From: a virus
Direction: 5' to 3' (one strand)
Virus record (IMG/VR): IMGVR_UViG_3300025030_000028
Span: 1 to 42,546 of that record
DNA: 42,546 nucleotides
Below, piece by piece: positions 26,723-37,692 of this stretch. How positions within the stretch are numbered: the first letter of the stretch is position 1; the number at the start of each line of letters is the position of its first letter. A model generated the notes under the pieces. It was given only the letters and a program-made list of their open reading frames with translations, ran no database searches and was not told where the DNA came from. The position numbers and the translations under genes are program-made.

Positions 26723-27298
26723 TTACTCCTTTGCGCCCGAGAGGTGCTTGGTTACGAAGTTGCCGCCCTTGGAAACGGTAGCGCCATCCATACCCGACAC
26801 GGAAGCGGCGGGAGTAGCGGCGGGCTTGGCTTGCAAGTAGCCTTCGAGCATTGCGGCTTGAACGCCCTTGTCGGCTTTGATGCCGAGTTTATCGCAACCG
26901 TAGCTCACCACGTCGTCGAGCGTCATTGTCTTGTGGTCGAAGGTGCCCACGTGTTGCGAAATCTTCGCGGCCAGTGTGTCGCGCTTGGCGATGCGGCCCA
27001 GCACGCTACGCTCGATTGCGGCGGCGTCCATGCCTGCGCCTGCGGGGGTGCCTTCGCCGCCTTCGCCTTCTTTCTTGGCTTCGGGGGCGGGGGTCGCCGG
27101 GTCGGTTGCGGCGGTTGCGGCCGGGGGTGCGCCTTTGTCGCCTGCGGGTTCGGCGGTAACGGCCGGGGCCGCCATCTTGCCGAATGCTTCGGTCAGTTTC
27201 GCGACTTGCGGGGCAAGCTCGGAAACCACGGCGATACATTGTTCGAGGGTCATAGAACCCGCGCCGCCGCCTTCGCCGCCTTTGTTTTCTTCTGCCAT
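26723..27298 (-). CDS. Scaffold protein from internal in-frame start
   Basis: An ATG at 27298, codon 353 of the protease fusion, is preceded six bases upstream by a perfect AAAGGAG (27311-27305). Translation from it gives 191 residues, [18 protein letters not shown] and onward, ending KHLSGAKE, corresponding exactly to the scaffold part. Nested protease/scaffold genes of this kind are established for lambda C/Nu3. Expression here is inferred. Confidence 0.65.
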
Positions 27299-28354
27299 TT
27301 CTAGCTCCTTTGCATCAAAAGTGAAAGTGAAGTGATCCATAACGGCCACGTCAGGCCCCATGCGCCCCTCAGTTACGAGGGCTAAATGGTTGCCCCTTAT
27401 CTTACGCTGTATTGCGTCATAACGTAAGCCGTTCCAAACGCCCGCCGTCATGTCATAAATACAACGATAACCGGCCGAAAGCTCGCGCTTTCCTGCCTGT
27501 ATCAAAGCCGCTAGTGTAGAGGAAAACGCTTTGATGTTGGCGTACAACACGCCGTCTTTGAAGAAAACTTCTTCGCCGATAACCCCTTGTACGCCCTTTT
27601 TCTCGGCAGGCAAAGCCCGGTCGGTCATTTCTTGCGCTACCGGCCCGAGCATTACGTGTTCGTCGATCCAAGGCAATAACTTGAACGACGCGACGCATTC
27701 GGGGTCGGCCAATTCTTCGGGCGGCCGCAACACTTGAAAGATGCGGTCAGCATCCGGGCCAGTGAGGCCGAGTTGCCGCCCTGAGTACGGGAAAATCCCC
27801 GCCTTGCTGATAGGGTTCGCCTTGAGTTCAAACCAGCCGTTACCGTCGTACTCGCGCGCATCCATGCCAACGCCGAGGGCGGGCAGGGCGGCAAGCGTGG
27901 CCGCGACGCCCGGGTGCAACGGTTGCGGCAGGGCGGCCAGCGGTGCCCACACGAAGCCCAAATGCTCGGGGTTAAGCGTAGGTGCGAAAGGTTCGGCAAC
28001 GTTGAGGCCGTAGGTCGTAAAGCCCCCGTCGTAGTCGAGAATGCAAAGCGGCTCGGTCGGTGCCTGCCCGATTTCCTCTTGGCTTTCACGGATCGCGGCT
28101 TGCTCGGGGGTTTCCCCTTCCTCGATATGCCCGCCCGGGAGGCCCCAATGCAACGGGAAGTCGGCCGTATTACCCGAGCGAAGCAAGAGCAAGACCGAAT
28201 CGCCCGCCCGGTAAAGGATACCGGCGGCAACGTCAGTACCCCCGGCCGCCCGGTAAGCAATGGCCGCCGCCCGTTCGACCGAGTGCCCCGCGCGAAGTAG
28301 CTCGGCGAGGTTTTGCGAAATGTTCTCGGGCGATGATCCCTTGGCGAGCGGCAT
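26723..28354 (-). CDS. Nudix hydrolase - prohead protease (DUF2213) - scaffold fusion
   Basis: 543 residues from the ATG at 28354 (GAAGGAG eight bases upstream). Residues 1-40 are a small helical domain ([16 protein letters not shown]). Residues 41-165 form a Nudix domain with a complete Nudix box from G75 to G96 (E81, R89, E90, E93, E94 present). Residues about 166-345 match DUF2213 prohead protease, with candidate catalytic S293 in LSAGYRC and H323 in NHLALV. The rest is a disordered Ala/Glu/Gly-rich scaffold-like tail. It probably processes the prohead and scaffolds assembly. The role of the Nudix part is unknown. An internal start at 27298 can make the scaffold alone. Confidence 0.9.
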
Positions 28355-28359
28355 GTCGA

Positions 28360-28653
28360 TTACTCCTTCGGAACGAGGGAGGCGAAGACGCCGACGTTCG
28401 CTTGGGTCAGGTCGGTAATCGTGTTGCCCGGTGCCCACGTGCCGCCGAGCGAACCATTCACGGAAACTTGCACGTCTTTGGTTTCGTCGTCTTTCAGGAA
28501 ATCAACGAAGGCGAAGGCGGCGGCTTGCGCGGCGGGGCGGTCGGTAACGTGGCAGGCTTGCGCAACTTCCACGCGGTCGAACTCGGCGGCGATTTTCTCG
28601 CGGGCCTCGGCCTTGGTTGCGGCACGTACTGCGAAAGAGTAAGACATTTTCAT
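28360..28653 (-). CDS. Hypothetical protein between MuF-like and protease genes
   Basis: 97 residues. Start [20 protein letters not shown] overlaps the MuF-like stop (ATGA at 28653-28650); a second ATG two codons later is also possible. It is a compact alpha/beta pattern ([20 protein letters not shown], then [17 protein letters not shown]), reminiscent of small phage proteins associated with head morphogenesis. No firm function. Confidence 0.75.
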
Positions 28654-35473: not shown

Positions 35474-35704
35474 ATGAACAACCAACGCCGTAAAGAAATC
35501 AAAGCCGTTCTCGATGAACTGGCCGCCCTGCGCTCCCGCGTCGAAGACCTCCAAAACGAGGAACAAGACTACTTCGACAACATGCCCGAGAACTTGCAGC
35601 AATCCGAGCGCGGCGAGAAGGCCGAGCAAGCCGCAAGCCGCCTCGAAGACGCCTTGACCGCCTTTGACGAAATCGAAGAAGCGTTGAACGAGGCCGCCGA
35701 ATGA
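35474..35704 (+). CDS. Small coiled-coil phage protein, unknown
   Basis: 76 residues, MNNQRRKEIKAVLDELAALR and onward, almost wholly helical, acidic and heptad-like, with EEQDYFDNMPENLQQSERGE. I recognise this as a widespread small phage and bacterial protein type without a known function. Placed right behind a class I promoter; stop overlaps the methyltransferase start (ATGA). Confidence 0.75.
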   Translation: MNNQRRKEIKAVLDELAALRSRVEDLQNEEQDYFDNMPENLQQSERGEKAEQAASRLEDALTAFDEIEEALNEAAE

Positions 35705-36598
35705 GCGGGGCGTACTACAACGAATGCGACCCGTTCGCCGCTGGCTGGCTTCGGGAATTGATAAGGGGGGCATATTGCCCCCGGTGAAGTAGATCAAAGG
35801 AGTATTGAAGATGTTAAGCCCGACGACCTTACCGGATTCACGCAATGCCATTTCTTCGCCGGGATCGGCGTTTGGTCGTATGCACTGCGGCGGGCCGGGT
35901 GGCGAGATGATTCGCCAATTTGGACAGGCTCTTGCCCCTGCCAACCTTTCAGCGCGGCAGGCAAAGGAAATGGGTTTGCTGACGAGCGGCATTTATGGCC
36001 CGCATGGTTCCACCTTATCACGCAGCGCGGCCCTGCAAGAGTCGTTGGCGAACAAGTTGCAAGCGGCGACGGCCTCGCTTGGCTCGACCTTGTACAAACT
36101 GACATGGAAGCGGCGGGCTACGCCTTCGGGGCGTTTGATTTATGCGCTGCGGGCGTCGGCGCACCGCACATCCGACAACGCCTTTACTTCGTGGCCGACG
36201 CCAGCGGCGAGGGATTACAAGGATGGGGCGGCCCCGAGCGTAGTATCGTCGAATCGAACCGACAAGCTATCACATTGCGTAATGCTCGCGGGCTACCCGA
36301 CGCCGCTTACGGTGCCGAGTTCGGAAGCGAGCCACGGGCAATTATCGGGGAGCTATCGCAAGGCAATGGAGGCGGCGTTACCCGAACTATTCGCCCCGGC
36401 CCGACTAACGGTTTTTGGCGCGATGCTGATTGGCTCGGATGCCGCGATAGGAAATGGCGGCCCGTTGAACCCGGCACATCCCCGATGGTTAATGGGGCTT
36501 CCCCCCGTGTGGGACGACTGCGCGGCTATGGTAACGCTATCGTCAGCGAAGTAGCCGCCGAGTTCATCCGAGCCTATCTTGACAAACGCGACAAGTAG
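35701..36598 (+). CDS. dcm: DNA cytosine-5 methyltransferase, frame broken at a G6 tract
   Basis: C5 cytosine methyltransferase. The N-terminal peptide MSGAYYNECDPFAAGWLREL begins at 35701 and reaches a stop at 35785-35787. The next frame, open from 35765, continues with GHIAPGEVDQRSIEDV and all core motifs: FFAGIG (motif I), GSCPCQPFS with catalytic Cys (IV), GEQVAS (VI), RQRLYFVA (VIII) and GYGNAIVSEVAAEFI (X), ending at 36598. The two parts meet at GGGGGG (35765-35770): one G fewer or two more restores one frame of about 298 residues. Either the gene is mutated, the base call is wrong, or expression needs slippage. A second gene lies inside it in another frame. Confidence 0.85.
35811..36554 (+). 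CDS. Overlapping gene inside the cytosine methyltransferase, other frame
   Basis: 247 residues from the ATG at 35811, read one base ahead of the methyltransferase frame. A strong ribosome site AAAGGAG (35796-35802) lies eight bases upstream. Features: LPDSRNAISSPGSAFGRM, GQALAPANLSARQAKEMG, GSTLYKLTWKRRATPSGR, SWPTPAARDYKDG and the C-terminal NPAHPRWLMGLPPVWDDCA. From memory, proteins with these signatures (SLxxRLxxxTxxxGSTLY; WPTPxARD; NPAHSRWLMG) are annotated in many phages and prophages at the same place. Function unknown. It may be a methyltransferase partner or an independent product; a non-coding shadow remains possible. Confidence 0.6.
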   Translation: MLSPTTLPDSRNAISSPGSAFGRMHCGGPGGEMIRQFGQALAPANLSARQAKEMGLLTSGIYGPHGSTLSRSAALQESLANKLQAATASLGSTLYKLTWKRRATPSGRLIYALRASAHRTSDNAFTSWPTPAARDYKDGAAPSVVSSNRTDKLSHCVMLAGYPTPLTVPSSEASHGQLSGSYRKAMEAALPELFAPARLTVFGAMLIGSDAAIGNGGPLNPAHPRWLMGLPPVWDDCAAMVTLSSAK

Positions 36599-36613: not shown

Positions 36614-36796
36614 ATGACGCCCCCAACTTTACCCGACGGCTACACGTGCGGCCATTGCGGCCGGTTCGCGAAATTTTCGGCATGGCTCTTTGCCCATTGG
36701 TACGAGCCAGTCATTCACACGTGCGAATGCGGCGCGCGTAGTCAGCTTGTCGAAGGCCGCGCAACTCTCAAACATCAACCCACGAAAGGCAAATGA
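36614..36796 (+). CDS. Small zinc-ribbon-like protein
   Basis: 60 residues. CGHCGRFAKFSAWLFAHWYE and CECGARSQLVEGR give two cysteine pairs (CxxC and CxC), a zinc ribbon pattern. No ribosome site is visible; the promoter's -10 box ends seven bases before the ATG, so leaderless translation is likely. Stop overlaps the ParB-like gene start. Small zinc ribbons of this kind are common in phage early regions, function unknown. Confidence 0.7.
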   Translation: MTPPTLPDGYTCGHCGRFAKFSAWLFAHWYEPVIHTCECGARSQLVEGRATLKHQPTKGK

Positions 36797-37692
36797 TCAT
36801 GACCCCCAAGCCGATAAATTCTCTCAAGGCCCTAGCCGAAGGCAAAACCGACGGTTTCCAAAAGGCCGCCTATTTCAAAGTTCGCCCGGATAAAGTCGAG
36901 TTCGAACAAGGCTTCAATTTGCGCGAGGAAGGCGCGGAATTGACCGAGCATATCGAGCGCCTTTACCACGCCATGAAGGCGGGCGCGTACATTCCCCCGA
37001 TTGACGTTTCGGTTATCGACGGCCGGGTTCTCGTTCGCGACGGCCATTGCCGCACCCGGGCCGCCCTGCGCTTGCTGGGGGAGGGCGTCGAGTACCTCTT
37101 GGAAGCGCGCCAATTGCGCGGCAACGACGCCGACGCCGTGTTTCATATGCTCGGCTCGGGTCAGGGCAAACACTTTACCCCCTTGGAGCAAGGGCGCGGC
37201 TTCCTGCGGCTTACCAACATGGGCCACACGGTCGCCGAGATTGCCGCGCGTACCGGAATGCACCGCTCAACCGTGGAGAACGGCTTGGCGCTTGCCGAGG
37301 CCCCCGTGGCCGTGCAAAAGATGATTGCCGAGGGTAAGGTGGCCTCGCATACCGCACTCAAGGCAGTACGCCAAGAGGGGGCCGCCAAGGCTACCGAGAA
37401 GCTCGCGGCAGGCGTCAAGGCGGCCGAGAAGGTCGGCAAGAAGAAAGCCACGGCGAAGCATATCGACGGCCCCAAGGAACGCGGGCAAACCCTGCCCCCG
37501 AAGGAAACCGCCGCCCCCGTGCCGCCCCCGCCCAAGCGTCGCGCGGCCGACAAGACCCTCGAAGATAAATGCGTCGAGTTCGTTCGCGCCCTCGCCGACC
37601 GTAGCACGCTCGTAACCTACCAATCGCGCGACTTCGTGCAATTGATCGAGGCCGCTTACGATATTGTCAGCCCCGAGGAACCCAAGAAATGA
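36793..37692 (+). CDS. ParB-like nuclease-fold / HTH protein
   Basis: 299 residues. The ParB N-terminal domain covers about 28-120 with the motif RVLVRDGHCRTRAALRLLG (79-96). A helix-turn-helix follows (VAEIAARTGMHRSTVENGL, about 147-165), then a Lys/Ala/Pro-rich linker and a small C-terminal domain (LVTYQSRDFVQLIEAAYDIV). Phage ParB-like proteins bind DNA in replication, partition or regulation. The ATG at 36793 overlaps the previous stop; the ATG at 36799 has better spacing to GAAAGG and may be the real start. Confidence 0.88.
   Translation: MIMTPKPINSLKALAEGKTDGFQKAAYFKVRPDKVEFEQGFNLREEGAELTEHIERLYHAMKAGAYIPPIDVSVIDGRVLVRDGHCRTRAALRLLGEGVEYLLEARQLRGNDADAVFHMLGSGQGKHFTPLEQGRGFLRLTNMGHTVAEIAARTGMHRSTVENGLALAEAPVAVQKMIAEGKVASHTALKAVRQEGAAKATEKLAAGVKAAEKVGKKKATAKHIDGPKERGQTLPPKETAAPVPPPPKRRAADKTLEDKCVEFVRALADRSTLVTYQSRDFVQLIEAAYDIVSPEEPKK

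Follow-up and report, generated by a model that had tools for sequence, protein, structure and literature searches.

A second gene nested in the +1 frame of a phage cytosine methyltransferase and its probable role as a motif IX subunit

A phage gene encoding a C5-cytosine methyltransferase contains a second long open frame, displaced from the first by one base, which raises the question whether two proteins are encoded by the same stretch of DNA and, if so, what the second protein contributes. The window, i.e., the complete 42,546-nt virus record IMGVR_UViG_3300025030_000028, has a GC content of approximately 60% and contains primase and polymerase genes, as well as tail-sheath, baseplate, capsid, portal, and terminase genes, which identify the virus as a contractile-tailed phage. 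No endonuclease was found among the 20 window ORFs scanned. The methyltransferase frame is designated alpha and the nested frame beta; their coordinates and those of the associated features are given in Table 1.

The two frames and the start signal of beta

Alpha matches the profiles PF00145 (E 1.3e-10) and PHROG_363 (E 3.8e-74), and it carries motifs I, IV, VI, VIII, and X, with motif VI reading GEQV rather than ENV. Motifs I, IV (PCQ), VIII, and X, by which membership of the C5-methyltransferases (PF00145) was judged, are all present in alpha. The sequence match with M.HhaI spans motifs IV-VIII, and the predicted model of alpha resembles M.HhaI and M.HaeIII. The profile of PHROG_1008 matches residues 10-239 of beta, representing most of the protein (E 2.7e-28). 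Sequence and profile searches with beta returned no credible Pfam or NCBIfam family, none of the PDB chains matched its profile, and a predicted model of beta only was of low confidence and gave no fold match in a structure search. The absence of a fold match for beta alone would be expected of a subunit that folds on its partner, which does not amount to proof.

Table 1. Coordinates of the features at the alpha-beta locus of the window.
Feature	Position	Strand	Basis or remark
Upstream gene	35474..35704	+	PHROG_4068; TGA stop overlaps alpha ATG 35701 as ATGA
Alpha N-terminal segment MSGAYYNECDPFAAGWLRELI	35701..35787	+	Translation; frame 1, ends TGA 35785-35787
Alpha, C5-cytosine methyltransferase frame, 277 codons, without N-terminal ~21 residues	35765..36598	+	PF00145, PHROG_363
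Shine-Dalgarno AAAGGAG of beta	35796..35802	+	Sequence; eight bases before ATG 35811
Beta, nested +1-frame gene, 247 aa	35811..36554	+	Open frame; PHROG_1008; selection tests
Alpha motif IV PCQPFS (catalytic Cys)	35936..35953	+	Sequence; invariant in 57 relatives
Alpha motif VIII GAPHIRQRLYFVA	36158..36196	+	+1 frame here is the beta stretch ending SWPTP
Beta motif IX LNPAHPRWLMGLPPVWDDC, near beta C-terminal end	36465..36521	+	Conserved in 54 betas; aligns with single-chain and staggered relatives
Alpha motif X GYGNAIV	36524..36544	+	Conserved columns; weak profile match to motif X of single-chain relatives

An earlier note on this DNA had drawn attention to the Shine-Dalgarno sequence of beta and to the rare AGG arginine codon that it forces upon alpha. 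Both observations hold, AGG making up 1.8% of Arg codons across 14 long window ORFs. Moreover, 40 of 56 relatives have GGAG at this site, compared with 10 of 60 Arg-Ser pairs elsewhere (p 2e-9); the AGG codon is found in 25 of 56 relatives versus 7.9% elsewhere (p 9e-13), p-values that assume independence of relatives that are not fully independent. The translation start of beta and its Shine-Dalgarno sequence are under selection.

Protein-level selection on the nested frame

Eighty viral relatives were fetched, from which a selection set of 57 sequences was composed, including the window and sharing less than 85% pairwise identity in alpha. With stop expectations obtained from within-gene synonymous shuffles of alpha, the beta frame in these 57 sequences was found to contain 16 stops versus 232.6 expected, and all but one of these are located at the start edge or at the natural end of beta, whereas the +2 frame displays an excess of stops (775 observed versus 657 expected). 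Synonymous shuffling of the window alpha itself left the beta frame open in only 3 of 20,000 cases. In addition, the likeness of the beta translations among relatives amounted to 2.23 BLOSUM units per pair versus a null of 0.58 (z 147), compared with z 7.6 for the alpha segment that precedes beta and serves as a built-in control.

Constraint is also apparent at synonymous sites, since the entropy of fourfold third positions is 1.84 bits upstream versus 0.88 bits inside the overlap, where several fourfold sites are frozen in all sequences. The first ~45 codons of beta are nearly free, and constraint sets in at the PCQPFS of alpha. When the substitutions in 18 independent close pairs were classified by what they change in each of the two frames, the dN/dS of beta was 0.34 in the overlap versus 1.60 in the control stretch upstream. 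Midway through the gene, the value for alpha is close to neutral (0.94) whereas beta is constrained (0.38), in agreement with the earlier impression that the second half of the methyltransferase frame resembles low-complexity sequence and the second frame an ordinary protein. Beta is a real coding sequence, the overlap is real and selected, and purifying selection acts on each of the two frames in relatives. The second gene proposed in the earlier note is borne out by the inspection of homologues for stops as well as by the frame-wise analyses of dN/dS and synonymous-site constraint that it had suggested.

These data also bear on two explanations that do without a second protein. An open frame arising by chance from the amino acids of alpha and GC-rich codon usage is extremely improbable: in high-GC relatives few +1 stops are expected (1-2 per gene), and single sequences are thus weak evidence, but the depletion of stops over all 57 sequences, the frozen synonymous sites, and the dN/dS of beta contradict this explanation, as does the register that is unchanged in relatives at 34-51% GC. 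An origin of the synonymous constraint in RNA structure, or in a DNA signal located within alpha, would agree with the +2 frame likewise lying above its null, as expected of any constraint at the nucleotide level. Such a signal, however, would not deplete stops in the +1 frame only, with an excess in the +2 frame, and it accounts neither for the constraint on beta where alpha is neutral nor for the selected start signal, which leaves this explanation with next to no probability. The selection data rule out both. A frameshift fusion of the two frames was also considered and is ruled out, by the own selected start and conserved N-terminal half of beta, and by alpha reading through to its own motif X.

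Motif IX and the proposed two-subunit enzyme

In C5-methyltransferases the target recognition domain is situated between motifs VIII and IX. Motif IX is absent between motifs VIII and X in the alpha chain, and comparison of alpha with the C-terminal halves of single-chain relatives gave a match at motif X only, which was weak. The motif IX with which beta ends (LNPAHPRWLMGLP) is in single-chain relatives found in frame directly before motif X. In the window DNA, the beta-frame motif IX is followed two bases later by the alpha-frame motif X, so that the two frames together preserve the motif order of an ordinary enzyme. The single-chain methyltransferase gp47 of mycobacteriophage Graduation contains the counterpart RVSAEFYEWLMGLPRGWVTD in frame directly before its motif X LLGNGVVPQQAE, which is the place of motif IX, and PHROG_1008 matches residues 187-273 in the C-terminal part of this protein (E 5.3e-30); it also matches gp63 of Paenibacillus phage Lily. 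In the motif IX profile comparison, for which set A3 comprised three sequences, hhalign aligned the betas with the single-chain C-terminal halves at motif IX in a short match (probability 95, E 2.4e-8). Motifs I-VIII and X thus reside in the larger polypeptide and motif IX in the smaller one, which is the division of the M.EcoHK31I type; the division of the M.AquI type, which places both IX and X in the second polypeptide, does not apply, as X is found in alpha.

Judged from the sequence comparisons, beta very probably contributes motif IX to a split C5-methyltransferase as its second subunit, and the locus would accordingly encode a two-subunit enzyme. Of the two functions considered in the earlier note, a methyltransferase partner is retained and can be specified as the motif IX subunit, while a separate inhibitor as anti-restriction product is unsupported. 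Between motifs VIII and IX it is beta that is constrained, alpha being near neutral there, and target recognition may therefore be exerted by beta.

In the proposed mechanism, alpha would start at ATG 35701, in the ATGA overlap with the upstream gene, and be read as a single frame as it is in relatives, supplying motifs I, IV, VI, and VIII for AdoMet binding and catalysis, plus motif X. Beta, with a separate initiation at ATG 35811 directed by a Shine-Dalgarno sequence of its own, would supply motif IX and probably the small domain responsible for target recognition, which motif IX completes. The order of the motifs on the DNA, I-IV-VI-VIII-IX-X, is that of an ordinary C5-methyltransferase, except that IX lies in the +1 frame. 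The two proteins would then assemble into one enzyme that methylates the phage DNA, presumably as protection against host restriction.

A real beta protein could also fulfil another role, e.g., as an anti-restriction factor, a regulator of alpha, or a separate DNA-binding protein. The first 120 conserved residues of beta lack a known fold match and the literature searched shows no biochemical test of beta, both of which leave room for such a role, but beta was never encountered without alpha among the 193 loci checked, it contains the motif IX that alpha lacks, and the beta-like region belongs to the methyltransferase in single-chain relatives, making this reading unlikely. A different concern regards alpha in this particular record. 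The earlier note had assigned the methyltransferase to the frame of 35783, which requires correction: its conserved N-terminus starts at ATG 35701 in frame 1, which terminates at the TGA at 35785-35787, and the remainder of alpha is in frame 2, without ATG, GTG, or TTG before 36104. The N-terminus is in frame with the body in nearly all relatives checked, and the nearest relative (L002, 77% identical) has alpha as one intact frame, with the identical ATGA overlap between upstream gene stop and alpha start. The window alpha is possibly broken, mis-sequenced, or frameshifted, through sequencing error, recent mutation, or low-level frameshifting. That it is a broken gene, with only beta or neither protein made and the pair on its way out, is a possibility we take seriously while leaning against it; the body of alpha is free of stops and has kept its catalytic motifs, and a sequencing error would give an identical picture. 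Among the large structural and replication genes scanned, most are long, intact, and matched by their families, and the contig accordingly shows no obvious sign of low quality. The frame junction in alpha holds short G and C runs, and a pattern scan of viral contigs returned no second copy of the exact junction near 35740-35782. Beta would be translated whatever the state of alpha in the window record.

Distribution and relation to known systems

By tblastn, the beta frame was found in 227 annotated phage records, with a coverage of at least 80% in 209 of these; alpha reaches such coverage in 224 annotated phage records. Most of the phage records listed annotate one feature only at the alpha-beta locus. 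In the loci fetched from bacterial genomes, beta is positioned exactly +1 to alpha in 80 out of 80, and internal beta stops occur in two only, both of which also have stops in alpha. A distant, Paenibacillus-type viral set found with Lily gp63 shows the +1 register in 33 of 33 loci at 34-51% GC, and its beta profile matches the window-type betas (probability 99.3, E 4.8e-20). Hundreds of other phages share this conserved nested arrangement, mostly with one gene annotated.

In the M.EcoHK31I system, the smaller gene reportedly lies in a different frame within the larger one, and the two are similar in size to beta and alpha. M.EcoHK31I and M.EaeI are two-polypeptide C5-methyltransferases of restriction-modification systems (YGGCCR), whereas the alpha-beta pair belongs to a phage. 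The larger polypeptide of M.EcoHK31I is reported to comprise motifs I-VIII and X and the smaller one motif IX (PMC3404938). In this reported layout the motifs are divided as they are between alpha and beta. The Klebsiella aerogenes plasmid LR134256 was considered as a possible EaeI system and rejected, being a fragmented prophage-like region.

Among phages, Lily gp62/gp63 is likewise a C5-methyltransferase with a +1-nested beta (gp63, PHROG_1008), which its authors annotated as 'g62 internal gene'; Lily alpha differs from that of the window in lacking the YYNE N-terminal extension, and Lily beta is shorter (163 aa). ORF29/ORF28 of Escherichia phage K1ind1 ('C-specific methylase' and 'Mte8-like protein') belong to the same family with the inner gene annotated, and K1ind1 alpha, unlike that of the window, is in one frame. 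M.AquI and gp81/gp80 of mycobacteriophage LHTSCC resemble alpha and beta in dividing a C5-methyltransferase over two polypeptides, but they have motif X together with IX in the second polypeptide, and their genes are staggered rather than nested. In LHTSCC (L202:783-1878), gp81 contains motifs I-VIII and is followed by a staggered, overlapping +1 gene with IX and X; this +1 ORF is open from 1144 onwards, whereas the gp80 start is annotated further downstream, at 1291. Graduation gp47 has a beta-type motif IX (EFYEWLMGLPRGW) and then motif X in one frame, and differs from the window in being an unsplit single chain, with only a short +1 ORF that recalls part of beta. This 104-aa ORF (L164:1265-1579; STLF..., LLPTPLARDSKG) is possibly a remnant. 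Literature searches retrieved no described phage case of a nested two-part C5-methyltransferase.

The two-polypeptide kind of C5-methyltransferase is already known, and alpha-beta is a phage member of it; what may be new is the commonness of the nested form, the way in which the frames exchange their selective load, and the variety of arrangements, which comprises nested, staggered, and fused ones. As a tentative generalisation, to which we assign slightly less than an even chance, dual-coded split C5-methyltransferases would constitute a large, old, and mostly unannotated phage class, in which the nested frame is the sequence-reading domain while alpha is a free linker there, and which interconverts with staggered and single-chain forms via the frame that carries IX and X. 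As an example of a long overlap on one strand the locus is clean, since selection acts on both proteins and its burden passes from one frame to the other along the gene. Since beta is absent from most annotations and has no Pfam or NCBIfam model, such phage 'Dcm' enzymes may be scored inactive when alpha only is cloned. With nested, staggered, and fused forms existing side by side, the origin of an overlapping gene becomes reconstructable.

Finally, two observations concern other genes of the window. A ParB-like gene (36793-37692; PHROG_1033, E 2.3e-49) is located directly downstream of the methyltransferase, and the N-terminal part of the head maturation protease ORF (26723-28438, minus strand) also matches MutT/Nudix and other families.
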